64,000 nucleotides of DNA from Solibacillus sp. FSL R5-0449 (GCF_037975215.1 NZ_CP150239.1:2704001-2768000); one strand, 5' to 3'. Positions 6,084 to 40,014 are shown, counted from the stretch's first letter. The notes: a model not told the origin generated them from the letters alone. Numbers and translations: made by a program.

Positions 6084-6282
6084 CCCTTTTGAACAAGAAG
6101 ATCGTGAATATTACGTTTTGCGAAATGCGGAAGATCAGCACTCAGTATGGCCAGCAGTCATTCCTGTCCCTGCCGGATGGGAGGTCGTATATGGCCCTGC
6201 TTTAAAACCATTATGCCAACTCTATATAGAAGAAAATTGGATGGATATGAGACCTAAAAGTCTCCGTAGTGTTCTGGGATGA
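6076..6282 (+). CDS. MbtH-like NRPS accessory protein
   Basis: 68-residue MbtH family protein that binds and activates NRPS adenylation domains. The family signature is complete: the SVWPA and PAGW segments, and a C-terminal W-x-D-x-R-P-x-S-L. The start overlaps the end of dhbF by 8 bases and the stop overlaps the next gene (ATGA), so it is translationally coupled in the dhbF-mbtH-MFS-sfp operon. This is the small protein that sits beside dhbF in many Bacillales. Confidence 0.93.
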   Translation: MSNPFEQEDREYYVLRNAEDQHSVWPAVIPVPAGWEVVYGPALKPLCQLYIEENWMDMRPKSLRSVLG

Positions 6283-8311: not shown

Positions 8312-8323
8312 CGAATTAGCATT

Positions 8324-8362
8324 TAAAAAGCCTGTAGCCAAGTAAAAGGTTACAGGCTTTTT
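8324..8362. terminator. Bidirectional terminator between sfp and P450
   Basis: Arms AAAAGCCTGTAGCC and GGTTACAGGCTTTTT flank an 8-base loop, with A and T tracts on both sides. It lies between two convergent genes and can serve both. Confidence 0.9.
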
Positions 8363-8365
8363 CTC

Positions 8366-9616: not shown

Positions 9617-9701
9617 CTACTTCATCTCCTTTTGTCTAAAACATTGTCGGTAACCAATTCCCTGTTTATTCTTCAAAAAAACTTGCTTCTATCATAAATG
9701 C

Positions 9702-9736
9702 AAAAAACAGGCAGTGAAAATTTCCACCACCTGTTC
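9702..9736 (-). terminator. Terminator after dhbB
   Basis: On the minus strand AACAGGTGGTG pairs with CACTGCCTGTT (two G-T wobbles) and is followed by a T run. It ends the dhbACB transcript before the P450 gene. Confidence 0.82.
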
Positions 9737-9740
9737 ATTG

Positions 9741-10406: not shown

Positions 10407-10465
10407 CTAAATCACTCCTTTTTCTTTGTTGATGAAACCTTGTTGTATTTCATGTAATTAAACGT

Positions 10466-11668: not shown

Positions 11669-11714
11669 ATTACCGCTCCTTTTCGTTTCACTGCTCTGAA
11701 TTTGAAAGACATAC

Positions 11715-12503
11715 TTAACTCGCTCCCAATGTCGCGCCGCCATCCACGACAAGGTTGCTCATCGTAATATGGCTTGAGTACTCGGACAGGAAAAACAGAA
11801 TCGCGCCGACAATATTGTCCGGTTGTGCAATTTTTTTCAGCGGAATCCCTACTTTATACGTTTCAGGCATTCCTTTAATCATAACTTCAGCTCCATCATC
11901 ATCGGACCACATCGAACGTTGCATGTCCGTATCCGTCGAGCCCGGTGAAACGATATTGCAGCGTATATTATGCTCTGCCAGCTCTAGACCAAGACATTTT
12001 GTAAACATGACCGTTGCCGCTTTTGATGCTGCATAGGCCGCCATCGAAATTCTCGGTACACTAGCGGCATTGGATCCGACTGTTACAATTGAACCTGCAT
12101 TTCTTTGAATCATATAACGGCTTACCGCTCTTGAAACATAAAACACACCTGTCGTATTAATTGAAAAAACCCTTGCCCAGTCACAGTCAGTACATGATCC
12201 AACCGGTCCTGTAGTCAACGTACCTGCTACATTGACGAGCATTTCGATTGGTCCGATTTCGTTTTCCACTTTCTCGACAACTGCATCAATGGCGTTACTA
12301 TCCCCGACATCTGCAGGATAGGCGAAAACTTCGTGGCCCTGCTCTATTAAACCATTCACATGGCTTCTCAATTTCTCCTCGTTATAATCTATTGCAGCAA
12401 CTTTTACTCCTAATGTAGCCAAGCTTTTGACAAGGCTTGCGCCAATTCCCTGGGCCCCACCTGTCACAAGTGCAACTTTCCCTCTTAACTCCTGAAAGTT
12501 CAC
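11715..12503 (-). CDS. dhbA: 2,3-dihydro-2,3-dihydroxybenzoate dehydrogenase DhbA
   Basis: 262-residue short-chain dehydrogenase that oxidises dihydro-DHB to 2,3-dihydroxybenzoate with NAD+. Rossmann motif GGAQGIGA, catalytic YAASK and NVAG are visible. The GTG start at 12503 is chosen because AAGGAAG lies upstream and the residues that follow (NFQELRGKVALVTGG) match the usual N terminus; an in-frame ATG at 12572 would start inside the Fur box. First gene of the leftward dhb operon. Confidence 0.92.
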   Translation of the reverse strand: MNFQELRGKVALVTGGAQGIGASLVKSLATLGVKVAAIDYNEEKLRSHVNGLIEQGHEVFAYPADVGDSNAIDAVVEKVENEIGPIEMLVNVAGTLTTGPVGSCTDCDWARVFSINTTGVFYVSRAVSRYMIQRNAGSIVTVGSNAASVPRISMAAYAASKAATVMFTKCLGLELAEHNIRCNIVSPGSTDTDMQRSMWSDDDGAEVMIKGMPETYKVGIPLKKIAQPDNIVGAILFFLSEYSSHITMSNLVVDGGATLGAS

Positions 12504-12570
12504 TTCAACACTTCCTTTCACGTATACAGTTATGTAAAGACAGCTTGATTTCTTATTAGAATTAACAATC

Positions 12571-12589
12571 AATAATGATAATCATTATC
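12571..12589. promoter_or_regulatory. Fur box in front of dhbA
   Basis: AATAATGATAATCATTATC matches the classical 19-bp Fur consensus at 18 of 19 positions and forms a 7-1-7 style palindrome. It lies just downstream of the predicted dhbA start point, so Fur-Fe would block transcription when iron is plentiful. Confidence 0.93.
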
Positions 12590-13868: not shown

Positions 13869-13910
13869 GAGTTGACGTTTCTATTTGTGCGATCGCTTTT
13901 TGTTTTGGGG

Positions 13911-14092
13911 TTTTATTAGAAGAGTTGGGGCGGTTATTAGAAAATGTTGGCCGGGTATTAAAATATTGGGGTGCATTATTTGAAGATGTCTGCTGTTTAT
14001 TAGAACAACTCATTGGTATATTAGAAAGTCGCTCTTTTATTAGAACATTTTTTTGTTTATTAGAACAATGCAGGTCGTAATTAGAACTCTGT
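13911..14092 (+). repeat. TATTAGAA array 1 (nine units, 21-bp period)
   Basis: Nine copies or variants of TATTAGAA start at about 13914, 13935, 13956, 13977, 13998, 14019, 14038, 14058 and 14079. Spacing is 21 bp except 19 and 20 near the end. Each core is usually followed by a semi-conserved (C/G)A(T/A)T and then variable bases. The fourth unit is the variant TATTTGAA. The array fills the gap between the exonuclease gene and a membrane protein gene. See findings. Confidence 0.92.
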
Positions 14093-14144
14093 TTAAAACT
14101 ATTTCCAGTCGTCGTCGTAGAATATAACAAATGGAGGTGGAGAA

Positions 14145-14945
14145 ATGAGGAACTTCTCTTTATATATGATGTTTATCGGGATATTGACCACTGCTATAAG
14201 CGGGAACTGGATCATCCTTAATTATGAAAATGTCATAGATTATCCGAAAGCTTCCTATGTTGTTTTCGGAATCGGGTTAGCGGTTGTAGGAGGCACATTT
14301 GTCATGAGTCGTCTCTTCAGTTACCTGCAGCCGGAAAAAGTACATCTGAAAGATAAACGGGATGCTTTGAACGAATGGCTCATGACGAATCTGCCCTTTA
14401 ATAAATGGGTGATCGGCCTCGTTATTCTCCCGCTTGTAATCGCACCATTTTATAGCTGGCTGCTGCTTTTTACGATGCTGGAATGGTATTTGTTTTCGGG
14501 GCTTGTAGTAGCCGGTATCATTTACATGCTGAAAGGTGAAAGAACCGAAGACGATGCGGACTGGGAGTATCACGGGAAGACAAAAGTGATGCTTGACCTG
14601 ATCGACTACCGCAAACATCCGTTTAATATTTCGCTTATTCTCTACATTCTGGTCATTGTCAGTTTTGTGTTGAGCAAGGGATTGGATATTCCGCTCTATA
14701 TGGAAACAGGCGGCAACCCGCGCTACGTTACTTCTTTGCCTTCGATTTCATTTTTAATGTCTTCCTTAATGGTCGTGAGTACGTTTATTTATATTATCAG
14801 TCACGGGGACTTCTTTGGTTTTCATAAAGCTGAATTAAGTGATGAAAGAGTTATGCTCGTCCACTTTGCAGAAATTATTGTATGTGGTGCTACTCTGTTT
14901 ATTTTAATTTTTACATTAATCAATGCGCTATATGCATATTTTTAA
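14145..14945 (+). CDS. Unrecognised multi-pass membrane protein
   Basis: 266 residues with about six to seven hydrophobic segments: two at the N terminus, a charged cytoplasmic-looking stretch (residues 65-85), two more near 90-130, a charged loop (GERTEDDADW), then segments near 165, 205 and 245. I do not recognise the family and see no catalytic motif. It follows array 1 closely (about 50 bp) and has a GGAGG ribosome site. The next gene, a cupin protein, is on the same strand 80 bp downstream; nothing links the two in function. Confidence 0.75.
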   Translation: MRNFSLYMMFIGILTTAISGNWIILNYENVIDYPKASYVVFGIGLAVVGGTFVMSRLFSYLQPEKVHLKDKRDALNEWLMTNLPFNKWVIGLVILPLVIAPFYSWLLLFTMLEWYLFSGLVVAGIIYMLKGERTEDDADWEYHGKTKVMLDLIDYRKHPFNISLILYILVIVSFVLSKGLDIPLYMETGGNPRYVTSLPSISFLMSSLMVVSTFIYIISHGDFFGFHKAELSDERVMLVHFAEIIVCGATLFILIFTLINALYAYF

Positions 14946-15024
14946 GTGGCGTGCTACTATCGGCAATAGGCACACCCCGTTAAATTATCGCATACTTTAA
15001 CTACAATAAAAAAGAGGTGAACGA

Positions 15025-15591
15025 TTGAATCCGAATCATGTTTCAGCGCAACCGCAGTTTACATTCGATCTTAATAAAAACCCGTTGTTCATTAAAGACC
15101 AGCATAATTTTATTAATGTAATGGGTGTCAACCAGTTGAATACGCTGGATAATATATCGCTGCTTGATATTTATTTGAGTGCCAATAATGTCATTGAGCC
15201 GCACTACCATCAAAATGCGGCGGAACTTGTTTACTGTATCACGGGAAGGGCGATTGTTTCGATTTTGAATCCTTTTACGAAACAGCTGATGCATTTTCCG
15301 ATTAGCCCCGGTCAAGTGGCGAACGTTCCTCAAGGGTGGTGGCATTACGAAGTTGCTACGCAAAACAACACGCATCTGCTTGCCATTTTTAATGCTCCGA
15401 CACCTGAAGTGATTTTAGGTTCCGACCTGCTTAAGCTGACACCGGCAAATATTATGGCCCATACTTATGGCATGAATGAAAATCTGTGGCAGCAGGCAGT
15501 TGCACCTGTCCGACCTAATACTTTCATCGGTCCGCCAAACCCTTGGCAGCACGCCCAGCCCGCTAATTATGGCGGCGGATATGAGCAGTGA
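15025..15591 (+). CDS. Cupin-domain protein
   Basis: 188 residues starting at TTG after AAAGAGGTG. The middle is a single cupin barrel: PHYHQNAAELVYCITG gives the first metal-binding motif (two His and Glu), and VPQGWWHY with a later His the second. The C-terminal 50 residues are proline- and asparagine-rich. It resembles the oxalate-decarboxylase/germin type of cupin seen in Bacillales, but the substrate cannot be told. Confidence 0.8.
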   Translation: MNPNHVSAQPQFTFDLNKNPLFIKDQHNFINVMGVNQLNTLDNISLLDIYLSANNVIEPHYHQNAAELVYCITGRAIVSILNPFTKQLMHFPISPGQVANVPQGWWHYEVATQNNTHLLAIFNAPTPEVILGSDLLKLTPANIMAHTYGMNENLWQQAVAPVRPNTFIGPPNPWQHAQPANYGGGYEQ

Positions 15592-15703
15592 TTGCACTCG
15601 GTCAAAGGGAGTAAGTTTCAAAAAAGTGCTTGCATTGTGAAGTGGTCATGTTATGATTATTGTGAAATTAACCTAATATTGGAAGCAGATAATCTGCTCG
15701 TCA

Positions 15704-15780
15704 AACTACTAGGGGCGCCTTTTGGCTGAGAAGTACCCTTTGCACCTGATCTAGGTAATACTAGCGTAGGAAAGTAGTGT
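15704..15780 (+). ncRNA. TPP riboswitch
   Basis: The THI-box core is present: AGGGGCGCC followed by TGGCTGAGA, then CCCTTTGCACCTGATCTAGG, and the closing GCGTAGGAAAGTAGTG. It precedes thiW, a thiazole uptake gene, and is followed by an intrinsic terminator at 15817-15847, so thiamine pyrophosphate should stop transcription of thiW. Confidence 0.95.
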
Positions 15781-15816
15781 CGATTCCCTATTTTTATTTT
15801 TTTTATAGGCTACGAT

Positions 15817-15847
15817 ACCACTTTCTTCATTGAAAGTGGTTTTTTTG
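15817..15847 (+). terminator. Riboswitch-controlled terminator of thiW
   Basis: ACCACTTTC and GAAAGTGGT pair around six bases and run into eight T. It lies between the TPP aptamer and the thiW ribosome site. Confidence 0.9.
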
Positions 15848-15872
15848 TTGCAAAAATTAATGTAAAGGATGG

Positions 15873-16382
15873 ATGGTTGAAATGAATAAAACGAGAAAGC
15901 TTACATACTCCGCGATTATAGCAGCGATTACAACGATTCTCAGCAGTATGGTGTATATCCCATTAGGATTCGCGAAAATTTTTCCGATACAGCATTTTGC
16001 CAATGTCGTCTCGGCCGTACTTCTCGGTCCATGGTATGCGGTATTGCAGGCGTTTCTTACATCAACGTTAAGAAACTTGATGGGGACAGGCAGTCTATTT
16101 GCTTACCCTGGAAGCATGATTGGTGCCCTTCTCGCGGCATTGTTGTTTGCGAAAACGAAGAAGCTGGCGTTTGCCGCTTTGGGTGAAGTGGTCGGGACAG
16201 GGTTACTTGGTGCAATGGCTACTTATCCGATTGCGATATTATTTTTAGGTCAGGAAGCGGCGCTGTTCGGTTTTGTCCCGGCCTTTATGATGAGTTCGTT
16301 TGCGGGTGCAATTTTAGGCTATGGCTTGCTGAAAGTGATGGTGAAAAACCGGGCGTTTGGCGGGATGCTTAATGCGGGGTGA
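15873..16382 (+). CDS. thiW: Thiazole ECF transporter substrate-binding protein ThiW
   Basis: 169-residue membrane protein with five to six hydrophobic segments. The IPLGFAKIFPIQHFANVV stretch and the LRNLMGTGS loop are typical of ThiW, the S component that takes up the hydroxyethylthiazole precursor of thiamine with the shared ECF module. The upstream TPP riboswitch supports this strongly. ATG codons at 15873 and 15882 are both possible starts; the ribosome site AAAGGATGG suits either. Confidence 0.92.
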   Translation: MVEMNKTRKLTYSAIIAAITTILSSMVYIPLGFAKIFPIQHFANVVSAVLLGPWYAVLQAFLTSTLRNLMGTGSLFAYPGSMIGALLAALLFAKTKKLAFAALGEVVGTGLLGAMATYPIAILFLGQEAALFGFVPAFMMSSFAGAILGYGLLKVMVKNRAFGGMLNAG

Positions 16383-16398
16383 GTCGCTGAGGTTGGGG

Positions 16399-16766
16399 CG
16401 GTTTTATTAGAAGATTTTCGGTGGTTATTAGAACATTTGGGTGGGTTATTAGAACAATTTTTTGCTAGAGAATTTTTTGTATTATTGTATCGATTTTATT
16501 AGAAGAATTGGTGCGGTTATTAGAACTTTTGCGGGTTATATTAGAACAATTTATTTATAGAGATCTGTTTTCACCGGCTTACCGATTTTATTAGAAGATT
16601 TGAGCGTTTATTAGAACTTCCGGGCGGGATATTTGAAGATCTGCGGACGATATTAGAACATATGACAGACTTATTAGAACAACCGATACTTATATTAGAA
16701 CATCTCACTTTTATTAGAAGATTATAAAATATATTAGAACAACTCAGACCTTTATTAGAAAATGAA
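16399..16766 (+). repeat. TATTAGAA array 2 (about 15 units, with ~92-bp blocks)
   Basis: Motif cores lie at about 16405, 16426, 16447, 16497, 16519, 16539, 16588, 16609, 16630 (TATTTGAA), 16651, 16672, 16693, 16712, 16732 and 16753. A higher-order block of 91-92 bp starts at 16405, 16497 and 16588; each block opens with TTTTATTAGAAGA, and the first two close with a decayed unit. The last four cores show the same 19-20-21 spacing as the other arrays. It lies between thiW and a convergent VOC gene. Confidence 0.92.
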
Positions 16767-16803
16767 GAGCCGGGTATCAATCAACGCATGACACCCGGCT
16801 CAT
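16765..16803. terminator. Inverted repeat, probable terminator
   Basis: GAGCCGGGTATCA and TGACACCCGGCTC pair around eight bases at the end of array 2, between it and the VOC gene. The T tract is weak on both strands, so termination is likely but not certain. Confidence 0.6.
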
Positions 16804-16807
16804 TTCA

Positions 16808-17203
16808 TTAAGCTAAATTAATCTGCCACGACACGCCGTAACGGTCATTGAGCCAGCCGAACTTCTTACTGAAACCGTAATCCCCGATTGGCATTAGCGG
16901 ATGGCCGCCTTCAAGCAGTTTTTCATACAGATAGTCGGTTTCCTCTTCTGTATCACATGTAATAAAAATAGAAAACGACGGGGTGAAGTCAAATTCATGT
17001 TTCAAATTGCTGTCAATGCACATAAATTCCTGACCTTTTATTGAAAAAGTCGCTTGCATGACTGTTCCTTCGTCTCCGCCTTCGTTTGCTCCATAGCGGA
17101 CAATGCTCGTAATTTCCGCGTCCTCGATTACGGATGTGTAGAAGTTCATTGCTTCTTCTGCAACACCGCCTTGAAACATTAAAAATGGTTTTGCGCTTTT
17201 CAT
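16808..17203 (-). CDS. VOC-family protein (PhnB/glyoxalase-like)
   Basis: 131-residue single vicinal-oxygen-chelate fold protein of the PhnB/3-demethylubiquinone-methyltransferase-like group. Recognisable segments are KPFLMFQGGVAEEAMNFY at the N terminus, FMCIDSNLKHEF in the middle and FGWLNDRYGVSWQIN at the C terminus. Such proteins are widespread in Firmicutes and their substrates are mostly unknown. It stands alone, facing thiW and array 2. Confidence 0.85.
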   Translation of the reverse strand: MKSAKPFLMFQGGVAEEAMNFYTSVIEDAEITSIVRYGANEGGDEGTVMQATFSIKGQEFMCIDSNLKHEFDFTPSFSIFITCDTEEETDYLYEKLLEGGHPLMPIGDYGFSKKFGWLNDRYGVSWQINLA

Positions 17204-17388
17204 TGTACCCTTCCCCTTCTTAATTCAAATTTGCACCACTTCAATTTAGCCTATTTTAACCTTGTTTACGAACTTTTCCCCCTATAATTTAAATGGAATC
17301 TCCTAACTAGAAGATGCCTTTCGTTTAATATTTAAATTTTGCATTAACGGTGGGGGGTGGGGTGCCGAAAATGTTATATTTCACATAA

Positions 17389-17424
17389 AAAAGCCTCCTG
17401 CGAGATAGCCCTCACAGGAGACTT
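17389..17424 (-). terminator. Terminator after luxS
   Basis: On the minus strand CTCCTG pairs with CAGGAG inside a longer imperfect stem, followed by GCTTTTTT. It ends the transporter-luxS operon. Confidence 0.85.
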
Positions 17425-17434
17425 GCTTCATCAA

Positions 17435-17905
17435 TTATTCACCGAACACGATATGCCACTCAGCGCGGCCGGCTAAAAATTCTTCAGCCAATGCTTTTGC
17501 GCCTTCCAAGCTATGGCTTGCCGCCCAGCCGCATTGGACTTCATTGCATGCCGGAACAGAATCTGCCTTCAGCACATCCTGCAGGGTATTTTCGATAATC
17601 GTTAATACACCGTCATAGTCATTGTAGTTCAGTAATGCCAGGTAGAAGCCTGTTTGGCAGCCCATTGGCGATAAATCAACGACATCTTCACTATGGTTGC
17701 GGATACGGTCGGCCATTAAATGCTCCAAAGAGTGCAGTGACGGCATTTCCATATGTGCTTTGTTCGGCTGTTTGAAGCGGATATCGTATTTTGTTACGAC
17801 ATCGCCTTTCGCTCCTGTTTTCGTACCGGCAAGTCGTACGTATGGTGCCACTACTTTCGTATGGTCTAAATCAAAGCTCTCTACATTCGTTTTCTCTGTT
17901 GTCAT
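17435..17905 (-). CDS. luxS: S-ribosylhomocysteine lyase LuxS
   Basis: 156 residues, the usual LuxS length. The Fe/Zn site HSLEHLMA (H-x-x-E-H) and a second metal ligand Cys in NEVQCGWA are present, plus the conserved [11 protein letters not shown] segment with the catalytic Cys. It cleaves S-ribosylhomocysteine to homocysteine and the AI-2 precursor. It starts 15 bases after the ABC ATPase gene with a GGGGGA ribosome site, so it looks like the last gene of an amino-acid (probably cystine) uptake operon, linking sulfur uptake with methyl-cycle recycling. Confidence 0.95.
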
Positions 17906-17920
17906 GTTGAATCCCCCTAG

Positions 17921-18661
17921 TTAGATAAATTGCATAGATTTTATAAATTGCTGAATCCGTTCATTGTTATTCGCTGTAAAGAAGTTTTCGGTTATGCCGT
18001 CATAGCCGATCTCACCGTTTTCCAGAAATAAAATCCGGTCGGCCACTTCGCGCGCAAAATTCAGGTTATGTGTCACGATAATCATCGACTTGCCTTCTTC
18101 CGCTAAATCTTTCAGCACCTTCAGTACTTCTCCCTCAAGCTCGGGATCCAGTGCACTCGTCGGCTCATCGAACAGCAAAAACTGCGGCTCCATTGCCAAT
18201 GCTCTTGCGATGGCGACACGCTGCTGCTGCCCGCCGGATAATTGCGATGGATACTGGTCTGTTTTATGACTCAGGCCAACCTTCTCCAATAATTGCTGTG
18301 CCTTTTGTTTTGCAGCCGCTTTGTCTTTCCTTAAAACGGTAACCGGCCCTTCCATCACATTTTCAAGCACTTTCATATGCGGGAACAGATTGAAGCTTTG
18401 GAATACCATCGCCGTATTTTGGCGAATTGAAAGCAGGTTCTTCTGAGAAATCGGTTTGTTCAGTTCAACTGTCTGGTAGCCGACTGTCAAAACTCCCTTC
18501 TCAGGTCGCTCCAATAAATTGATGCAGCGTAACAGCGTTGATTTCCCTGAACCGGATGGACCTAAAATAACCGTTGTTTCGCCTTCATGAAATGTTAAAT
18601 TAATATTTTTCAATGCCTCGTTCTCGCCAAAGAACTTCGACATTTGCTGAAATTGTACGAT
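17921..18661 (-). CDS. Polar amino-acid ABC transporter ATPase (cystine type), ATC start
   Basis: About 246 residues. Walker A GPSGSGKST, Q-loop MVFQSFNLFPHM, signature LSGGQQQRVAIARAL, Walker B FLLFDEPTSALDPE and switch His in THN identify a polar amino-acid importer ATPase (TcyC/TcyN/GlnQ group). The first ATG (18643) is 25 bases from the ribosome site and would cut off the first beta strand (VQFQQM). GGAGG at 18673-18669 lies 7 bases from an ATC at 18661 and 4 bases from an ATT at 18664, so a rare AUC or AUU start is likely. Gene order binding protein, permease, ATPase, luxS. Confidence 0.88.
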   Translation of the reverse strand: MVQFQQMSKFFGENEALKNINLTFHEGETTVILGPSGSGKSTLLRCINLLERPEKGVLTVGYQTVELNKPISQKNLLSIRQNTAMVFQSFNLFPHMKVLENVMEGPVTVLRKDKAAAKQKAQQLLEKVGLSHKTDQYPSQLSGGQQQRVAIARALAMEPQFLLFDEPTSALDPELEGEVLKVLKDLAEEGKSMIIVTHNLNFAREVADRILFLENGEIGYDGITENFFTANNNERIQQFIKSMQFI

Positions 18662-18697
18662 AATAAGCCCTCCCTTCTAGCGCTACACCTGACAATC

Positions 18698-19357
18698 TTA
18701 TACATACTTCGATGCGTATTTTTCCAGGCGGCTTTGAATGACCATCAGTATACTAATGAAGATTAAATAGATGACCGCACAAAGTGAATAAATCATAAGC
18801 GGCTCATATGTACGTGCGGTAATTTGCTGCCCGACCATGAATAGATCCGCCAGTGTGATACTCGCAACTAAAGATGTTCCTTTTACCAGATCGATAAAAT
18901 CATTGGCTACTGACGGCAATGAAATTCGGACGGTCTGTGGTGCGATAACTCTGCGCATCATTTGCCAATATGTCATACCGAGGGATTCTGCAGCTTCCCA
19001 TTGTCCTTTTGGAATGGCTAGAATCGAAGCCCGGATCGATTCGGATGCATAGGCACCTGTATTCAGTGAGAAAGTAATAATCGCCGCTGTCCATGCATCA
19101 AGGGTAATCCCCACTTTCGGAAGACCGAAGAATACAATAAACAAAGTCACCAATAATGGTGTTCCACGAAATACCCAGACGTACGTACCGAAAATCCAGC
19201 GTAATACTTTGTAGTTCGAGATTCGAGCCAGTGCCGTCACGACTGCGATGACTAAAGCTATGACAAAGGCAATGAGCGATAGCGGAATGGTAACAAGAAG
19301 TCCTGCTTTTAAAATCGGCCAGATCGAGTTCAGTAATATATCCATTTCTCTACTCAT
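18698..19357 (-). CDS. Polar amino-acid ABC transporter permease
   Basis: 219 residues with five predicted membrane segments and the EAA loop (EAAESLGMTYWQMMRRVIAPQ) that docks the ATPase. The FRGTPLLVTLF motif is characteristic of the HisM/GlnP/TcyB permease family. It lies between the solute-binding lipoprotein and the ATPase genes on the same strand. The closest-looking system is cystine TcyABC, suggested by the luxS neighbour; another polar amino acid is possible. Confidence 0.88.
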   Translation of the reverse strand: MSREMDILLNSIWPILKAGLLVTIPLSLIAFVIALVIAVVTALARISNYKVLRWIFGTYVWVFRGTPLLVTLFIVFFGLPKVGITLDAWTAAIITFSLNTGAYASESIRASILAIPKGQWEAAESLGMTYWQMMRRVIAPQTVRISLPSVANDFIDLVKGTSLVASITLADLFMVGQQITARTYEPLMIYSLCAVIYLIFISILMVIQSRLEKYASKYV

Positions 19358-19419
19358 CCACTAACACTCCTTTCTATAGTTAAATCCACGTAAAAAAGGC
19401 CGTCGAAACGACCTTTCCA

Positions 19420-20220
19420 TTAGTTGTTTGAAATAACATTTTCACCAAAATATTTTTCCGAAATTGCTTCGAATGTACCGTCTTCTGTACGTTCTTTAAT
19501 AATTTCATTTAACTTCTCACGGAACTCATCGTTTTCTTTATTTAATATTAATGCGATATCAGTTGAATTGATCGCACCGTCCAGCACTTTCAATTTCGTA
19601 TCCGGCTGTTCCTGCAAGTATGTCAGGAATGTTACACGGTCATGGATTGTTCCATCTGCGCGGCCTTGTACAACAAGCTCGATTGAACTCATTAAATCAT
19701 TTGTAGCAACTACTTCTGCACCAAGCGCTTCTGCATCGCGGGCAAAGTTACTTGTAATTGTTTGTGAAGATTTTTTGCCGTCCATGTCAGCCGGCTCTTT
19801 AATTTCTGTGTTATCTGTATGGACTGCAACTACCGCTTCTGATTTCATATATGGCGTTGAGAAGTCGTACTTTTCTTTACGCTCATCTGTAATCGATACG
19901 TTGTTAATAACGAAATCGTATTTATCTGTATCTAAACCTGCAATTAAAGAATCCCATTTTGTTTCAACATATTCTGCTTCAACACCAAGGTCTTTTGCGA
20001 TCTGATCGGCAATTTCATATTCAAAGCCAGTTAGTGCACCTGATTCATCATGGAAGCTGAATGGAGGAAATGTTCCTTCAAGACCGATTTGAATTTTGCC
20101 GTCTGCCTGGATTTCCTCTAATTTATTTTTTGCCTCGCTTGCGTTTTCCTCTGTTTTATCGCCACCGCATGCTGCCAAAACAAGTGCTGATAATGTAACG
20201 ATTGATAATAATTTTTTCAT
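19420..20220 (-). CDS. Amino-acid ABC transporter solute-binding lipoprotein
   Basis: 266-residue family-3 extracellular solute-binding protein. Lipoprotein signal MKKLLSIVTLSALVLAAC with the lipobox LAAC, then a low-complexity linker and the binding fold (GLEGTFPPFSF, GFEYEIADQIAKDLG, WDSLIAGLDTDKYDF). The start at 20220 is chosen because GGAGG lies 8 bases upstream; the in-frame GTG at 20235 overlaps that site. First gene of the transporter-luxS operon. Cystine is the likely substrate by analogy with TcyA; not provable from sequence alone. Confidence 0.88.
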   Translation of the reverse strand: MKKLLSIVTLSALVLAACGGDKTEENASEAKNKLEEIQADGKIQIGLEGTFPPFSFHDESGALTGFEYEIADQIAKDLGVEAEYVETKWDSLIAGLDTDKYDFVINNVSITDERKEKYDFSTPYMKSEAVVAVHTDNTEIKEPADMDGKKSSQTITSNFARDAEALGAEVVATNDLMSSIELVVQGRADGTIHDRVTFLTYLQEQPDTKLKVLDGAINSTDIALILNKENDEFREKLNEIIKERTEDGTFEAISEKYFGENVISNN

Positions 20221-20365
20221 GCTAATTGCCTCCACTATTAATCCCTAGTTATTTAATACGTTTTATATTATAACAGGGTAATTATAAAAACAATCTTTAT
20301 TTTCTGAACTATTTTTAAATTTAGAACTATTAGTTAATAATTGCTAGGAATCGTGTTAAATACAG

Positions 20366-20400
20366 AAAAAAATTGTCAATTTCCTTAAATGGAAATTGAC
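20366..20400 (-). terminator. Terminator after the SLC13 transporter gene
   Basis: On the minus strand GTCAATTTCC and GGAAATTGAC pair around six bases and are followed by a run of seven T. Confidence 0.88.
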
Positions 20401-20407
20401 ACTGACT

Positions 20408-21850
20408 TTATAAATGCATGCCTGTCCATTGCCAAATAGTAAAGTAGAACAGCATGATGATGAATATATAAAGGGGCATTAAAATGGCGCTAAGCTTTAT
20501 GAGGTTCCGCGCATCATAGGAAATATCCCCTTCCTCATAAAACAGCAGCAATGCTTTCGAGCTGACCGGCACCGTTACACAGTAGTTCATCCCGATCAGA
20601 CTTAAAAACACGACAGTTGACGGGTTGACCCCGATTAACTCACTGAATAAAATCAGTCCTGGAATGAAGACAATGGCACGAGTCGTATGGGAAGTAATAT
20701 ATAGATGACTTGTCACGGTAATCGTTAGGATCATTAGTACAATCAGCCAGTCCGGTGCACCGACAAACAGATGCAGGACGCTGATCATTTCACTTTCCAT
20801 CCATTCCACAATCCCCGTATCAACCAATACTTTACCGAGCGCCGTCGCTGCAGCAACGAACATTACAAGATTCCACGAAACGGCATTCATTCCTTGTTTC
20901 CAACTGATAATCCCGAAGTTCGGCATCATAAAAAGAATGGCACCGATTACTGTAATCAGTTCAATATCCAACCCGTGAAGGCTTTCCGTCATCCAGCCGA
21001 TGATTAAGAATAATATGAGTATCATTGTCTTTTTTTCATCTTTTTCTAAAGGTTTTATTAAAGGTGTTGTTTCAACACTTTCCAATTCCTCAGCACTATC
21101 CCGCGGCCACAATGTCCATTTGATGACGATTAATGAAAGCAATGTTACAACAAGTGCAAACGGAACTCCCCATATTAACCACTGGATGTAGGAAATCGAT
21201 TTACCGGCCGTACTTTCGAGAAAACCGACGCCGATTAAATGGGAACCTGCTCCGATTAAGGTCGCCGATGTACTCATTAAAATAATGACCGGTGCGATAA
21301 TCGCCAAAACACTTTGTTCTTTGGAAGTAAATTTTTCGCTTATTTGCTTTATGATCGGCATCGATAATGCTGCCCGCCCTGATGTTGAAGGAATAAAGAA
21401 GGCCGATGCAAACAATACCGAACTTAGCCCGAGCACGACATTCTCTTTTTTATTTGATTTACTTAAGATGAACATTGTTAGTCGTTCGGCCAGCCCGGAT
21501 TTTTTAACGGCTTCCCCGATAATGAACGCACCGATCATGAGCCACACGACTTTTTCGGATAATGAGCTGTACAATAAATCAGGCTCTGCTGCATTCATTA
21601 AAATTATAAATGCAATAAGTGCCATCGCCACCCAGCCTGCTGAAAATTTCGTTGTCACCCATAATGTCATCGCGCATAAGAATGCAAATAGAGCAACTTT
21701 TGCACTGTAATCCAAATCTTGTATGAAAATAACCGTAATCAGAATCAGAATGTGTATGGAAATAATGATCGCTGTCTTTCTCGGCATCGATTGAATCTTT
21801 GTTTTCAGGCGATTTTGCTTTTTTTTATTTCTTTCTACTCTGCTAGGCAT
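20408..21850 (-). CDS. SLC13/DASS-family anion:sodium symporter
   Basis: 480-residue protein with a basic N-terminal tail (residues 1-28) and about 12 membrane segments. The family traits SxSGRAA (FFIPSTSGRAALSMP), the TSATLIGAGSHL hairpin and the C-terminal PVSSKALLLFYEEG are visible. DASS proteins import di- and tricarboxylates or sulfate with sodium. The gene starts one base after the glycerate kinase stop with only a weak ribosome site, so it is probably translated by coupling, and a glycerate-, tartronate- or tartrate-like substrate is a reasonable guess. Confidence 0.85.
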   Translation of the reverse strand: MPSRVERNKKKQNRLKTKIQSMPRKTAIIISIHILILITVIFIQDLDYSAKVALFAFLCAMTLWVTTKFSAGWVAMALIAFIILMNAAEPDLLYSSLSEKVVWLMIGAFIIGEAVKKSGLAERLTMFILSKSNKKENVVLGLSSVLFASAFFIPSTSGRAALSMPIIKQISEKFTSKEQSVLAIIAPVIILMSTSATLIGAGSHLIGVGFLESTAGKSISYIQWLIWGVPFALVVTLLSLIVIKWTLWPRDSAEELESVETTPLIKPLEKDEKKTMILILFLIIGWMTESLHGLDIELITVIGAILFMMPNFGIISWKQGMNAVSWNLVMFVAAATALGKVLVDTGIVEWMESEMISVLHLFVGAPDWLIVLMILTITVTSHLYITSHTTRAIVFIPGLILFSELIGVNPSTVVFLSLIGMNYCVTVPVSSKALLLFYEEGDISYDARNLIKLSAILMPLYIFIIMLFYFTIWQWTGMHL

Positions 21851-21851
21851 G

Positions 21852-23033
21852 TTAAATCGCTCTTTCTTTTCTATTCTCTTTATTGGCTATTTCCATGCCA
21901 ATTGAAACTTTCCGTAAAACCGATTCCGTACTTTCCTCAATCCATTTCGGTGCTTTTTTAATCGCCTTTTCCAAAGATATCGGTTTTTGAATGATGCTGC
22001 TGTAGGCATCAATCCCGGCATGATAGTTCAGATTGGCGCCTTTTCCGATTGTTCCTGTAATCGCAATGACCGGGATATGATTCTTTTTCGCAATGCGTGC
22101 CACTTCAGCAGGAATTTTCCCGTTCGGTGTCTGAAAATCAAGACTGCCTTCCGCTGTTAATACGATATCCGCCGTCAGAATTTTTTCTTCTATATTGATA
22201 TATTTCATGATGATATTGAACCGTTGATGCAATGTGGCACCCGCAAATGCAATTAGCCCCGCACCTAACCCGCCGGATGCCCCGCTGCCCGGTAATGAAC
22301 GGACATCCATTTTTGTTGCCTGTTCAATTAGATCCGCATAATGATCAAGCGCTGATGCTAATTGTTCCACCTGTTTTGGTGTAGCTCCTTTTTGCGGTCC
22401 AAATATATGCGCCACCCCTTTTTCGCCGCATAAAATATTGTTCCAGTTACATGCCACATTGATTGAAACGTTCTTTACCCTTGGATCTGCATTTTGCATA
22501 TCAATAGATTCTACTTCCATTAAGTCTTCCCCGCCGTTCACATGGATGATTTGCTTATTTTCGTCCAAAAACCGAATGCCCAATGCTTGCGCCATTCCCG
22601 CACCCCCGTCCGACGTACCCGAATCACCGCAGCCAATCAGAATATTATCAATGCCCATATCAATTGCCGCAACAATCAATTCCCCTACACCATAAGTAGT
22701 CGTTTTCAACGGATTTCTTTGATGACGCGGAACAAGCTTCAAACCGGCCACCGCCGCCATCTCAATAACCGCATTCCGTTTCCCGTTTTCTGTGTAAATA
22801 CCAAAATAGCTTTTAATCTTTTTGCCGACCGGTCCGGTTACTTTTTTATATACGATTTCTCCATTTTTTAAACGAACAATCGTCTTCACAAACCCTTCCC
22901 CGCCATCAATCATTGGTATTACTTCCAAATCAACGGTCGGGTCAAATCGTCTTACCCCACGTTCCATTGCTAATGCGACATCCTCTGCGTCCAAACATTC
23001 TTTAAACCCTGATGGTACAATTACAATTTTCAT
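21852..23033 (-). CDS. Glycerate kinase (GarK/GlxK family)
   Basis: 393 residues, close to the family length of about 380. Conserved blocks: KIVIVPSGFKECLDA at the N terminus, PMIDGGEGFV, GCGDSGTSDGGAGMAQALG, and LPGSGASGGLGAGL. It phosphorylates D-glycerate, usually to 2-phosphoglycerate in this family, feeding glyoxylate or aldarate breakdown into glycolysis. The ATG at 23033 has GGAGG eight bases upstream; a longer in-frame start at 23048 overlaps the ribosome site. It is cotranscribed with the SLC13 transporter gene. Confidence 0.9.
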   Translation of the reverse strand: MKIVIVPSGFKECLDAEDVALAMERGVRRFDPTVDLEVIPMIDGGEGFVKTIVRLKNGEIVYKKVTGPVGKKIKSYFGIYTENGKRNAVIEMAAVAGLKLVPRHQRNPLKTTTYGVGELIVAAIDMGIDNILIGCGDSGTSDGGAGMAQALGIRFLDENKQIIHVNGGEDLMEVESIDMQNADPRVKNVSINVACNWNNILCGEKGVAHIFGPQKGATPKQVEQLASALDHYADLIEQATKMDVRSLPGSGASGGLGAGLIAFAGATLHQRFNIIMKYINIEEKILTADIVLTAEGSLDFQTPNGKIPAEVARIAKKNHIPVIAITGTIGKGANLNYHAGIDAYSSIIQKPISLEKAIKKAPKWIEESTESVLRKVSIGMEIANKENRKERAI

Positions 23034-23145
23034 TAGGCATCCCTCCAAAATTTATTAATTGTAAATGTACCATCCCAAAATTAGAAAATACTGAGAACTC
23101 TATTAGATTACGATGATAGAACGAGAAGTGCGATTTATAATGGAA

Positions 23146-23181
23146 AATGGCGCTGTTCCTTCTTGCAGGAAAGCGCCATTC
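23146..23181 (-). terminator. Hairpin after SDR gene
   Basis: AATGGCGCT and AGCGCCATT pair, extended by TTCCT/AGGAA. The T tract is short, so termination is probable rather than sure. Confidence 0.6.
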
Positions 23182-23187
23182 ATTCTA

Positions 23188-23925
23188 CTATTCTTCGTAA
23201 ATCATTTTCTTCGTCATTCCGCCATCGATTGTCAGATCCGTCCCGGTAATAAAATCATTTTCCGGGTTCGCTAAATACAGACAGGCGCGGGCAATATCAT
23301 CCGGTTTGCCGACACGGTTTGAAAAATGCTGTTTGTGGTCGGAGGGTCTTAGGGCATCGTAATCCCCTGTTTCAATCCATCCCGGTGAAATGCTGTTTAC
23401 TGTTATGTTCAGCTCACTGAATGAGCTTGCCAATGCATGAGTCAAGGCCAGGATTCCGCCTTTTGATGCGGCATAGCCTTCTGAATTCGGTTCGGACATG
23501 ACCGCACGCGTTGACGCAAGATTGATGATCGCCCCGCCGCTGTTCATCCGTTTTGCCGCTTCACGCGAACATAAAAAGACACTGCGCAAATTCGTATTGA
23601 TGATGTCATCCCAGTCTTCGAGCGATAATTCCAGCGGTGAAATCCATTTCCCTTTCCCCGCATTATTGATCAAAATATGAATTTCTCCAAAACGGGCTGC
23701 GGCCATTTCCATCAATTGACGGACGCTCTCTTCACTGCGCACATCGGTCTCTGCAAAAATAGCGGAGTAGCCTTCCTTTTGGAGTTCGCCTGCCAGCTGG
23801 ACACCTAAGTCATGTTCGATATCTGCGATGATCACATTGGCACCGGCTTTTGCAAAATGAGTTGCTACGGAGCGCCCGATTCCTTGCGCTGCCCCTGTGA
23901 TGATTACGGTTTTGTTTTGAAACAT
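23188..23925 (-). CDS. Short-chain dehydrogenase/reductase
   Basis: 245-residue classical SDR. TGAAQGIGR cofactor motif, NNAG, catalytic Ser in INLASTRA and YAASK (Tyr and Lys) are all present, with the SPGWIETG segment after the active site. An Asp after beta-2 (IIADIEHD) suggests NAD(H) preference. The substrate is unknown. Strong AAAGGAGG ribosome site. It reads away from array 3, which starts about 110 bp upstream of its start codon. Confidence 0.88.
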   Translation of the reverse strand: MFQNKTVIITGAAQGIGRSVATHFAKAGANVIIADIEHDLGVQLAGELQKEGYSAIFAETDVRSEESVRQLMEMAAARFGEIHILINNAGKGKWISPLELSLEDWDDIINTNLRSVFLCSREAAKRMNSGGAIINLASTRAVMSEPNSEGYAASKGGILALTHALASSFSELNITVNSISPGWIETGDYDALRPSDHKQHFSNRVGKPDDIARACLYLANPENDFITGTDLTIDGGMTKKMIYEE

Positions 23926-24033
23926 TGGTCGAATTCCTCCTTTGTCAATTGCTTAGTAAGAGTGTAACTGAAATGAGTTGAGATTTCGTGTTTGAGGTTG
24001 TGCTTTTTTAGAGTGTGTGCGCGGGATTTTTTA

Positions 24034-24611
24034 GGCTGTGCGGCAGCGGGGCGGGATTTTATTAGAAAATCTAAGTTAGTCGGGCGCTTTTTTGAGGGCA
24101 AGCGTTGATCTTCACGTTGGCCGGTTGCCGGGGTAGGATTTTATTAGAAAAGTTCGGGTACTTATTAGAAGAATTGCGTCGGTTATTAGAATATTGGCGG
24201 GGTTAATTAGAAGATTTCGTTTAGTCGGGCTTTTTTTGGGGTGAAAGCATTGTTTTTCACGTTGTTCGGCAGCGCGGCGGGATTTTATTAGAAAAGTTCG
24301 GGTACTTATTAGAAGAGTTGCGCCGGTTATTAGAACATTGGCTGGGTTTATTAGAAGATCTCGTTTAGTCGGGCTTTTTTTTGGGGTGAAAGCATTGTTT
24401 TTCACATTGTGCGGCAGCGGACCGGGATTTTATTAGAAAAGTTCGGGTACTTATTAGAAGAGTTGAATGGGATATTAGAACATTTGCGTGTTTTATTTGA
24501 ATAGTTGGGGCACTTATTAGAAAAAATAGGATTTATATTAGAATATCTCACTTTTATTAGAACATTTTTCGGGATATTAGAACAATGCAACGTTTTATTA
24601 GAAAATCTTCC
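24034..24611 (+). repeat. TATTAGAA array 3 with 144-bp composite repeats
   Basis: The longest array. Cores lie at about 24060, 24142, 24163, 24184, 24204, 24286, 24307, 24328, 24349, 24431, 24452, 24473, 24494 (TATTTGAA), 24515, 24536, 24555, 24575 and 24596. A composite unit of 144-145 bp begins at 24137, 24281 and 24426, with a decayed earlier copy near 24034. Each complete composite holds four 21-bp units, then a G/C-rich stretch with GGGC, a T run and the hairpin GTGAAA-TTTCAC. The final module matches the other arrays. Confidence 0.93.
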
Positions 24612-24664
24612 TTACTGCAATCGTATCCGCGCATCCACTAGAACGAGTAATTGCCTCGCTTTCA

Positions 24665-24673
24665 TGCTATAAT
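24665..24673 (+). promoter_or_regulatory. Extended -10 promoter of the HEAT-repeat gene
   Basis: TGCTATAAT forms an extended -10 about 50 bp upstream of the start codon and about 65 bp downstream of the end of array 3. No good -35 is seen, as is usual for extended -10 promoters. Confidence 0.55.
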
Positions 24674-24722
24674 GGATGGAGCGGATCATTGCTAGTAAGG
24701 CAATGACAAAGGAGACAAAATA

Positions 24723-25175
24723 ATGAGTCAACAAAATCAAGAAACAGCACCACAATTACCTGAAAATTTCAGTGAATTAAAGAAGGCCATAAATCGTACA
24801 GCAGACTGGGAAGCACGTTTAGATGCAGTACAGGAATTAGCGAAAATTAAAGCGGATGAATCGATCAAAATTTTGGAATATGTTGCGAAAGCGGATTTAG
24901 TAACGAAAGTTCGTGATGCTGCGGCGAAACAGTTAAAGAAAATGGGTCAGCAAGTTGAACCGTCGGAAGCACCTAAAGGCGAATTGTTCAAAGACCTGCG
25001 CAAAATTTTCAAACGCATTAAGAAAAGCTTGCCTGCGGACCATACGTATGAAGACTTCAAAGTAAAATTAGAAAAAATGCGTATCGATATTTACAACACA
25101 TATGAAGGTGAAAAAGGCGCACAGTTTGACGCTTGGCTGAAGGATATGTGGGAAACAACGACAACTCGAAAATAA
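24723..25175 (+). CDS. HEAT-repeat protein
   Basis: 150 residues. The N-terminal half (residues 20-85) has two alpha-helical HEAT-like units (WEARLDAVQELAKIKADES and VRDAAAKQLKKMG). The C-terminal half is a lysine-rich helical domain (FKDLRKIFKRIKKSLP, YEDFKVKLEKMRID). No enzyme motif, signal peptide or membrane segment, so probably a cytosolic protein-protein interaction scaffold of unknown role. Ribosome site AAAGGAG. It is a single-gene transcript: own promoter and a strong terminator directly after. Confidence 0.75.
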   Translation: MSQQNQETAPQLPENFSELKKAINRTADWEARLDAVQELAKIKADESIKILEYVAKADLVTKVRDAAAKQLKKMGQQVEPSEAPKGELFKDLRKIFKRIKKSLPADHTYEDFKVKLEKMRIDIYNTYEGEKGAQFDAWLKDMWETTTTRK

Positions 25176-25182
25176 TTACATT

Positions 25183-25213
25183 GAACACGGATTAATTTCC
25201 GTGTTCTTTTTTT
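25183..25213 (+). terminator. Terminator of the HEAT-repeat gene
   Basis: GAACACGGA and TTCCGTGTTC pair around a short loop and run into seven T. Confidence 0.92.
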
Positions 25214-25287
25214 GAATTAAATTAAAATCGTACACTCTATCAATTGAAGAGCATCAATTTTTTCCAAATTGATGTTCTCATTGGCAC

Positions 25288-25533
25288 TTATCTTGGTGCG
25301 TTTCGATCTAAAATTGCGGACGTGTTATCTTCGTGCAAATTATTCAATGTTGTTGTCGTGCTGTCGACTTTGGCATATGCATTCAGCTCATCCATTGGAA
25401 TCACATCCGTCGTTTGAACTTCCGCTGCATGGGCCAGTAACGCATTGCTGTCATTCGGCGAAAAACAAAACACTTCTTCTACTTGCCGGATTTTCATTTC
25501 TTCCTCTTGATTTTTTTTCGGATTGTCCTTCAT
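25288..25533 (-). CDS. Small hypothetical protein
   Basis: 81 residues, acidic and polar, no membrane segment and no motif I recognise. The strong AAAGGAGGTG ribosome site 7 bases before the ATG is the main reason to call it. A hairpin at about 25247-25281 lies just downstream. It stands between a convergent HEAT-repeat gene and a DUF2512 gene on the same strand. Confidence 0.65.
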   Translation of the reverse strand: MKDNPKKNQEEEMKIRQVEEVFCFSPNDSNALLAHAAEVQTTDVIPMDELNAYAKVDSTTTTLNNLHEDNTSAILDRNAPR

Positions 25534-25639
25534 TTTTTACACCTCCTTTTTTAGGATGTGTGATGCTTAGTTCATTATGTAAAAAACATCTAGTACAAAA
25601 ATAGCTCTCTCCTTATTGGAAAGCGCCATTACGAAACTA

Positions 25640-26044
25640 TTAATAATCTCTTTGAGCATCTGTTTCATGGGGACTATCGAATACTTGTCTATCAATATAT
25701 TTGTGGAAGAACCATTCCCCTAAACCGATGACTACAGCCGAAACAATGGTAGCTGCTACAATATTATCGTTGTTTTCAGAATAGCTTTGTGCCATAAAGT
25801 AAATAACAATCGCTGCTAGAAGTACATCCGATAACGTTGCGACGATATTTCTTTTATCCTGATCTGCGCGGGCACCGGCATTTTGGAAAATTCCTAAATC
25901 CCCTACAACATAAGCCAAAAGTGTTAACACTAAACTGATTACTAAAGTATCGCTAAATGCGAAATCAAAAATCCCTGCAAGAATAATACCTAAAACCGCC
26001 GCAATCATCACAAATTTAATAACCAAAGCTTTCAAGTGATTCAT
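25640..26044 (-). CDS. YndM-like DUF2512 membrane protein
   Basis: 134 residues with four hydrophobic segments (about residues 8-28, 31-50, 70-85 and 95-112) and a charged C terminus. The LTLLAYVVGDLGIFQ segment followed by a lipid-facing helix is the pattern of the DUF2512/YndM family of Bacillales. Function unknown. AAAGGAGG ribosome site. Monocistronic. Confidence 0.8.
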   Translation of the reverse strand: MNHLKALVIKFVMIAAVLGIILAGIFDFAFSDTLVISLVLTLLAYVVGDLGIFQNAGARADQDKRNIVATLSDVLLAAIVIYFMAQSYSENNDNIVAATIVSAVVIGLGEWFFHKYIDRQVFDSPHETDAQRDY

Positions 26045-26218
26045 ATAGAATACCTCCTTTAAATTTGGTATACAGCATTAATACCCAACTCACATATTTT
26101 TACTCATTTTAATAGAAAATTGTCAAAATTAATATTTTGGTATAAACTCAATCGTTTTTAAGTATATCTTTTAACGCAATGGTAAAAATATTGGAGATAA
26201 ACAGATGAGGTGATTAGA

Positions 26219-26599
26219 GTGGGTATTTTTGATGGGTTGATGGGCAATGCAAGTGAATTGAAGCCAGAAGATGTTCAAAAAGAGGTAGCCGAAATTATTA
26301 CGAGTAATGAAGTGGTCCAGCACGCTTTTAGAGTAATTCGCGATACGTTTATTTTTACAAACAAACGCTTGATCCTCGTTGATAAGCAAGGGATGACCGG
26401 CAAGAAAACGGAGTACATGTCCATTCCGTATAAAAGCATTACGAATTTTTCGATTGAAACAGCCGGAACATTCGATTTGGATGCAGAGCTGAAAATTTGG
26501 ATTTCGGGCAATAGTGTTCCTCTGCAAAAGAAGTTTAACAAAGCGACAAATATTTATGCGGTGCAGCGCGTTTTGGCTGAAAATATTTTGTCTTCATAA
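26219..26599 (+). CDS. Bacterial PH-domain protein
   Basis: 126 residues; a single bacterial pleckstrin-homology-like domain (bPH, YvbH/YdjM type). Features are VVQHAFRVIRDTFIFTNKRLILVDKQG and YMSIPYKSITNFSIETAG, which is the strand pattern of this family. Function unknown; such proteins are soluble or form ring-like oligomers. The GTG at 26219 lies 7 bases after GAGGTG and gives the usual MGIFDGLMG start; the GTG at 26210 is inside the ribosome site. A terminator follows at once. Confidence 0.82.
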   Translation: MGIFDGLMGNASELKPEDVQKEVAEIITSNEVVQHAFRVIRDTFIFTNKRLILVDKQGMTGKKTEYMSIPYKSITNFSIETAGTFDLDAELKIWISGNSVPLQKKFNKATNIYAVQRVLAENILSS

Positions 26600-26606
26600 A
26601 GCCTAA

Positions 26607-26635
26607 AACGAACGAGTGCGAATCGTTCGTTTTTT
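26607..26635 (+). terminator. Terminator of the PH-domain gene
   Basis: AACGAACGA and TCGTTCGTT pair around seven bases and are followed by five T. Confidence 0.9.
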
Positions 26636-26685
26636 GTTTCTTTTATATTTTGGGATTTATGATATGGTGGATATTAGAAGATTTT

Positions 26686-26860
26686 GAATATGTATATATA
26701 ATTGTGTAAAAGTGAAAAGTCATATCAATTCCTGGGTAAATGTATTGTGCGACCAAAACATTAGGAGGAATTAATATGACTCAAATTAATCTTAACCTAA
26801 ACTTAGAAGAAATTGAAGCAGCGATACTTGAATCGAATATGGTGGATATTAGAAGATTTT
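26686..26860 (+). mobile_element. Decayed left end of an IS256-family element
   Basis: ATTGTGTAAAAGTGAAAA at about 26700 looks like an IS256-family left terminal repeat. About 60 bases later an AGGAGG site and an ATG open a frame resembling the first ~22 residues of IS256-type transposases. The rest of the element is missing: sequence passes directly into TATTAGAA units. Identification is from memory of the family's N terminus, so moderate confidence. Confidence 0.5.
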
Positions 26861-26883
26861 TCGCTATATTAGAACATCACTGA
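26776..26883 (+). pseudogene. Transposase 5' remnant fused to array units
   Basis: A 35-codon frame with a strong TTAGGAGGA ribosome site. Its first ~22 residues (MTQINLNLNLEEIEAAILES) resemble the start of IS256 transposases. The remaining residues (MVDIRRFFAILEHH) are encoded by two array units, so the frame cannot be a working transposase. Whether the short peptide is made is unknown. Confidence 0.5.
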
Positions 26884-27044
26884 GGTTTATTAGAACATCC
26901 GCCGCACATATTTGAACATCGGGAACACTTATTAGAAGATCGTACATATATATTAGAAGATCGCAGTTTTATTAGAACATTTTAAGTTTATTAGAACATT
27001 GAGCCGTGATATTAGAACTTTTCTACGAAAGCGAGGAACCTTTC

Positions 27045-27320
27045 ATGCAAATCGAACTCGATGCAAATACGAAAAAATGGATGCAGACTAAAGGCAAGCC
27101 TGTTTCCGTAAAAACCATTTCGGTGAACGCTTGCTGTGCCCCGCCCATCCAGGAATTGATGACGCATTTAGGGAAGCCGAAAGACGTACACAACTATAAT
27201 GAATTCCAAATCGACAACCTGTCTGTTTACGTTGAGAAGAGCTTGTCTCATAATGAAAAAATGACATTGAAGCTTACAGGCATCGGTATTTTCAAAATGA
27301 TTTCAGCCAAATTAGGTTAG
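27045..27320 (+). CDS. CC/Se-motif small protein (Cys form)
   Basis: 91 residues. The NACCAPP segment at residues 33-39 is the Cys-Cys version of a Firmicutes family in which one Cys is selenocysteine in some members. The role is unknown; a redox or metal-binding function is guessed from the vicinal cysteines. I start at 27045 because GAGGAA lies upstream; the frame is open to 27006 but that part is array sequence. The stop overlaps the convergent NAD(P)-binding gene by four bases. Confidence 0.78.
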   Translation: MQIELDANTKKWMQTKGKPVSVKTISVNACCAPPIQELMTHLGKPKDVHNYNEFQIDNLSVYVEKSLSHNEKMTLKLTGIGIFKMISAKLG

Positions 27321-39982: not shown

Positions 39983-40014
39983 ACATATCCAGTGTCTATA
40001 AACAGTAAGCGTAT

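Follow-up and report, generated by a model that had tools for sequence, protein, structure and literature searches.

The chromosome of Solibacillus sp. FSL R5-0449 carries 52 intergenic arrays in which an 8-bp core word, TATTAGAA, is repeated in one orientation at a distance of mostly 21 bp. Comparison of orthologous loci gives good support to the notion that selection acts on these arrays at the DNA level, on a word and a geometry, and the arrays are probably sites for a protein that binds double-stranded DNA. Our best explanation, to which we assign as a whole a probability of about 0.42, is that they constitute a dispersed chromosomal nucleoprotein element, in which an ordered complex of a putative protein would form on the phased cores and act as a local boundary.

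Results

A family of phased arrays

We analyzed a 64-kb stretch of the chromosome (the window), in which an earlier note had described four arrays, all on the + strand and between genes, with 9, 15, 18 and 10 cores. The positions, strand and intergenic setting were borne out and the core counts were exact, with core starts at 13914–14079, 16405–16753, 24060–24596, and 26672 plus 26847–27010. Within the window, TATTAGAA occurs 49 times on the + strand and once on the − strand, and the commonest core-to-core distance is 21 bp. The whole genome contains 324 pairs of TATTAGAA at about 21 bp (199 forward and 125 reverse) as compared with 0 for the reversed control; the genome-wide excess of 21-bp phasing, on whose existence the earlier note had staked its proposal, is overwhelming. 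A genome-wide search with a three-core 19/20 pattern, allowing up to three mismatches, gave 53 matches and 0 in the control. By chaining the cores within the fetched array-bearing stretches of the genome, we arrived at the total of 52 arrays, of which 31 lie on the + strand and 21 on the − strand, so that the all-plus layout holds for the four arrays of the window but not genome-wide. The existence of the phased arrays is confirmed and lies far outside what chance would give.

The repeat unit consists of the 8-bp core and a filler of 11–13 bp and has no hairpin, on which grounds we rejected a CRISPR array. CRISPR repeats are roughly 24–40 bp long and tend to be palindromic, with spacers of similar length.

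Modular architecture

Nearly all of the 52 arrays end in one rigid module of nine cores, with spacings of 21 (or 20), 21, 21, 21, 21, 19, 20 and 20/21 bp. The period of about 21 bp that had been noticed in the window is the commonest distance there but not a uniform one, as nearly every array ends 21-19-20-20/21. Upstream of the terminal module there is often at least one further module, usually of four cores at 21 bp, and the step that follows it is usually 81/82 bp, with 50, 61 and 71/72 bp as alternatives. The four arrays of the window, all on the + strand, illustrate this layout. Array 1 is a terminal module alone (13914..14086; 21,21,21,21,21,19,20,21). Array 2 has two upstream 3-core modules (16405..16454 and 16497..16546), each followed by a 50-bp step, and then the terminal module (16589..16760; 20,21,21,21,21,19,20,21). 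Array 3 begins with a single leading core (24060..24067) and an 82-bp step, continues with a 4-core module (24142..24212), an 81-bp step, a second 4-core module (24286..24356) and an 82-bp step, and ends in the terminal module (24431..24603; 21,21,21,21,21,19,20,21). In array 4, the terminal module (26847..27017; 20,21,21,21,21,19,19,21) is preceded by a lone core at 26672..26679, which lies 175 bp upstream of it and inside one copy of a short direct repeat.

Cores 1, 6, 7 and 9 of the terminal module are nearly invariant, and cores 3 and 4 are often TATTTGAA (12/56 and 25/56, respectively). The long spacers between modules have no visible conserved sequence. The step lengths of the different loci group near 50, 59, 71, 81, 92 and 101 bp, consistent with increments of 10.5 bp; the p value of 2.5e-4 for this ladder is optimistic, because some entries are duplicates or chance cores.

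As 21 bp corresponds to seven codons, we considered whether the arrays might be coding sequence, or its relic, for a heptad-repeat protein. Stretches of them do translate as LLE-type heptads, and a match in another genus (G054) is genuinely coding. The steps of 19, 20 and 82 bp, however, break the frame, and no single frame is open in more than 6 of the 53 terminal modules. We give this explanation practically no weight.

Conservation of words and distances

We compared the arrays of the window's genome with their orthologs in two relatives, G007 and G008, at loci first picked by their match to the 3′-end pattern. Substitution between orthologous arrays amounted to 2.6% in the cores as compared with 23.8% in the fillers, and the core rate was the lower one in each of the 43 pairs. 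With the three cores that had served for locus finding left out, the values were 3.3% for cores, 25.2% for fillers and 27.0% for the long spacer. A weak constraint reaches 2–3 bases on either side of the core; the fillers, which the earlier note had described as varying freely, largely do so except for these flanking bases and for the AT-rich filler that separates cores 7 and 8.

Lengths were conserved as well. The length from core 1 to core 6 was identical in all 26 ortholog pairs, and in 12 of 15 pairs the long (A–B) spacers differed by no more than 1 bp. In the remaining three pairs the difference was 11, 11 and 22 bp, and both 11-bp differences involve one shared G007 array. By contrast, in the 3′ flank, which served as a control, just 5 of 23 pairs agreed in length to within 1 bp (Fisher p = 7e-4). 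These results show that the cores are selectively conserved, that their order and spacing are conserved independently of the filler sequence, and that the long spacers change in length by about whole helical turns. A length that is kept under sequence drift, and changed by about whole turns, is expected of double-stranded DNA that is read from one side.

Genomic surroundings of the arrays

Of the 52 arrays, 50 lie next to a gene 3′ end on one side or both. As a baseline we used the DNA around the arrays, rather than the whole genome; compared with the nearby array-free intergenic regions, convergent gene pairs are enriched (17 of 52 arrays against 8 of 110 regions) and divergent regions depleted (2 of 52 against 29 of 110). 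According to the simple gene and terminator calls made for this analysis, the first core is preceded in 36 of the 52 arrays by a terminator-like hairpin of the same sense, mostly 16–54 bp off, and in 25 an antisense one follows the array. The neighbors have no functional theme, their 92 proteins carrying 177 Pfam families.

The two flanks of each element differ in GC skew, which is +0.3 to +0.6 on the 5′ side and switches to about −0.4 on the 3′ side irrespective of how the neighboring genes are oriented; the value for ordinary post-gene DNA is −0.01. This switch is not accounted for by the nucleoprotein-array reading.

We also considered a function in RNA, in which readthrough transcripts would carry repeated UAUUAGAA words to be read by an RNA-binding protein. 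Forty of the 52 arrays run in the same sense as the gene upstream of them, but 17 of the forty lie between convergent genes and carry no information on this point, and the codirectional arrays divide into 23 sense and 10 antisense (p = 0.035). The 10 antisense arrays themselves argue against an RNA element, as do the location beyond terminators and the spacer lengths of about whole turns, which have no obvious meaning in single-stranded RNA. Nor was there any sign of RNA structure: no consensus structure was obtained for either strand (alifold 0.0 on both), and single sequences were less structured than filler-shuffled ones. An Rfam scan of the window gave no match to the arrays, only TPP and cobalamin riboswitches. 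We consider an RNA-level role highly improbable.

Short direct repeats of 21-bp period in a fixed multi-site layout would also suit an operator array for a transcription factor, either a LytTR-type regulator or an Lrp-type wrapping protein. However, LytTR counts are 4–6 alike in array-rich and array-free genomes, and neither the window's genome nor most of the array-rich ones have an Lrp/AsnC_trans_reg domain. The avoidance of divergent promoter regions and the miscellaneous neighbors also speak against an operator, and against the classical regulon role that had been suggested earlier. An operator array thus appears quite unlikely, although an existing regulator with changed specificity might still be the array binder. 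When gene content was compared across genomes, no binder emerged among the candidates LytTR, HU and Lrp; HU/IHF was rejected for want of a gene-content signal.

Distribution over the chromosome

dnaA is located at position 331, and the GC skew of the chromosome switches between 1.57 and 1.71 Mb. Dozens of intergenic sites are distributed around the chromosome, most sparsely between 1.87 and 2.61 Mb, and could form a chromosome-wide positioning system for nucleoid occlusion, segregation or replication polarity, like the Noc, SlmA and KOPS sites. Dispersed sites of the Noc/SlmA type are depleted around the terminus, and KOPS-type motifs are oriented with replication. Arrays nevertheless occur near the GC-skew switch at 1.57–1.71 Mb, and the 52 arrays show neither a significant trend with distance from oriC (KS p = 0.24) nor significant unevenness over ten bins (p = 0.08). 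They are also free of replication-strand bias, 27 of the 52 being co-oriented with replication. With neither a strand bias nor an ori/ter trend, the role in segregation or replication polarity that the earlier note had entertained was not upheld, and we regard a positioning system as very doubtful.

We also rejected a DnaA-box cluster, as DnaA boxes read TTATNCACA and the array core reads TTATTAGAA. The oriC of the array-rich G008 keeps canonical TTATCCACA DnaA boxes and is without TATTAGAA.

Distribution across genomes

Among 16 Solibacillus genomes, eight are array-rich, with 18–58 matches each to the 3′-end pattern; G001, G013 and G015 have a few simpler 21-bp arrays and the five further genomes have none. 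At the rpmE locus, the full module is found in the array-rich species, four cores in G013 and none in G001, G015, G014 and G011. Phased arrays with any core were absent from 240 kb of G014 and G011 and from 160 kb of four other array-free or array-poor Solibacillus genomes. An exact scan of GTDB species genomes, in which records near the window's genome may be absent, returned only Solibacillus faecavium A46 and S. merdavium Sa1YVA6. The TATTAGAA family is restricted to the genus Solibacillus.

That related genomes can do without the arrays is a point against our best explanation.

About 50 dispersed copies of one architecture, patchy between species, are what one would expect of a selfish non-autonomous mobile element of the REP or MITE kind, whose cores would be transposase-binding sites and whose copies would have inserted in harmless DNA past terminators. 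Whole elements have been duplicated in tandem at 313.5, 1078 and 1155 kb, array-free versions of the loci exist in relatives, and insertions that are tolerated typically sit at gene 3′ ends, which could by itself explain the position past terminators. The copies are old, however, and lie at orthologous places with their cores kept as the fillers diverge, whereas a stranded copy should decay evenly. In addition, MITEs have terminal inverted repeats and target-site duplications, and the flanks here are not significantly self-complementary as compared with swapped flanks (z = 1.5), and no match was found in plasmids or phages; viral-contig matches to a two-core pattern were nearly all single and scattered and were taken as chance. 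We consider a mobile element unlikely as an explanation of the present arrays, whereas a mobile origin followed by recruitment is conceivable.

A de novo scan of other genera revealed 20-bp arrays of a second word, TTTATCCGC, in G027. Across 220 genomes, pairs of TTTATCCGC were present in 18 genomes of 7 genera, with zero in Solibacillus and 1 match for the reversed control. At loci from five of these genera, the arrays have 4–11 cores, mostly 4–6, at a spacing of 21 bp (20 bp in G027). A gene 3′ end is next to 21 of the 24 arrays, and their 3′ flank is C-rich, as in Solibacillus. The TATTAGAA and TTTATCCGC words share TAT and then partly differ, and the intermediate words TATTCGAA and TTATTCGC occur. 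Like the Solibacillus arrays, the TTTATCCGC arrays of these other genera of the same family are intergenic, in one orientation and of 20–21 bp period with variable filler; unlike them, they have another core word, mostly 4–6 uniform cores and no 21-19-20 module. The two classes of array may be homologous, and their likeness in spacing and placement counts in favor of our best explanation.

Discussion

We read the Solibacillus arrays as docking arrays because their words and distances have been kept and the intervening DNA has not. Core constraint, whole-turn spacers, and the lack of both RNA structure and open frames favor the earlier note's view that the arrays are phased sites for a cooperatively binding protein and have no coding or CRISPR function; in this view, what we infer is the protein as the binder and the cooperativity of its binding. 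Intrinsic curvature, predicted with wedge parameters, was rejected as a property of the arrays: their ratio of end-to-end distance to contour is 0.885, whereas random DNA gave 0.904 and a control with phased A-tracts 0.19.

According to the nucleoprotein-array reading, a putative sequence-specific protein would dock at every TATTAGAA core, always in the same orientation and from the same face of the helix, so that roughly one unit would sit on every two turns. The bound units would oligomerize into an ordered complex, with the 9-site terminal module as the core complex, and the optional 4-site upstream modules, held at whole-turn distances, would extend it. At gene ends, such a complex might act as a local boundary that either limits the diffusion of supercoils or stops readthrough RNA polymerase. 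The location of the arrays just beyond terminators and between converging genes hints at this boundary role, for which we see about even odds provided that the arrays do hold a protein on double-stranded DNA; a nucleoid or boundary-type role may apply. In E. coli, gyrase is attracted to the DNA downstream of transcribed loci and also to BIME-2 elements, which it has been reported to bind and cleave (PMC6379681). A topological role at gene ends would thus have a precedent; gyrase at the Solibacillus arrays would be an analogy.

A wider reading, which we find possible but rather less than likely, is that of a family-wide element, in which each lineage would have its own protein, co-evolving with a core word that is TATTAGAA in Solibacillus and a TTTATCCGC variant in other genera. 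Stereotyped, helically registered complexes built by this protein at dozens of gene ends would be topological boundaries or insulators.

Intergenic repeats in bacteria are as a rule recognized by conserved sequence or by palindromes. Here, conservation resides in a short word and in fixed distances that extend over as much as several hundred base pairs, in dozens of copies. The arrays therefore represent a natural replicated experiment on how a multi-site protein–DNA complex is assembled and which length changes it tolerates. If they are true boundaries at gene ends, they would provide a sequence-defined bacterial insulator, and the differing core word of other genera would allow a direct test of protein–site co-evolution.

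The earlier note knew of no named family with this layout. A match to a characterized repeat family was sought and none was found, and the literature on TATTAGAA, TTTATCCGC, Solibacillus repeats and phased extragenic repeats held nothing relevant. Several known systems nevertheless share features with the arrays. The REP/BIME elements of enterobacteria are likewise present in dozens of dispersed extragenic copies at gene 3′ ends, but REP units are palindromes, whereas the Solibacillus arrays repeat a short word directly and in a single orientation, form no hairpin, and conserve the distances rather than the fillers. Plasmid iterons and iteron-type origins consist of direct repeats in the same orientation about two helical turns apart, a period that the arrays share. 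Iterons, however, have longer conserved units and lie at one origin beside a rep gene, in contrast to an 8-bp word at 52 dispersed chromosomal sites with no linked initiator seen. Plasmid centromeres (parC/tubC, bound by ParR/TubR) combine phased short sites with a cooperatively binding protein, but there are one or two per replicon, each beside its own operon, whereas about 50 arrays are dispersed with no such operon in view. LytTR regulators use short direct repeats about 21 bp apart, usually two in a promoter, as compared with 9–32 sites past a terminator and no gene-content link for the arrays. Because the arrays have the full defining set of none of these systems, while resembling BIMEs in location and iterons and centromeres in geometry, we set them apart from the named families.

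Base composition and neighbours of the arrays

We examined the flanks of all 52 phased arrays of the genome and found that GC skew reverses across them, the 5′ side being G-rich and the 3′ side C-rich, as exemplified by window 13880-13913 and 16761-16800. The direction of the neighbouring genes does not affect this switch.

Beside array 1 lies the gene for a 266-aa protein (window 14145-14945) that matches neither Pfam nor NCBIfam. It is present in exactly the array-rich genomes of the genus (8/8, as against 0/8 of the others); two of its orthologs lack an array upstream, and its distribution is probably merely clade-specific.

Array 4 contains a direct repeat of about 23 bp that includes a core (ATATGGTGGATATTAGAAGATTTT), with copies 175 bp apart (window 26663-26860). 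The segment between them carries a 35-codon ORF (MTQINLNLNLEEIEAA...) together with a ribosome-binding site, and this segment looks like an insertion into the array. That the ORF represents a transposase N-terminus is only a guess; searches of Pfam and NCBIfam returned no match for it. Directly downstream of array 4, a small protein (27006-27320) matches NF041239, the subfamily of CC/Se motif (seleno)proteins.

Elsewhere in the window, 51-12572 is likely a catecholate siderophore cluster, encoding a two-module NRPS with thioesterase (2010 aa), an MFS exporter, a phosphopantetheinyl transferase, an isochorismatase, a chorismate-binding enzyme, an SDR dehydrogenase and a P450. A TPP riboswitch (15701-15789, + strand) precedes the gene for a ThiW transporter; on the − strand, 40000-40177 is a cobalamin riboswitch.

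Arrays in other genera

Intergenic arrays phased at 20-21 bp, with variable filler, also occur in other genera of the same family, Planococcaceae (loci L420, L422-L430 and L449-L466); their core, TTTATCCGC, differs from that of Solibacillus.
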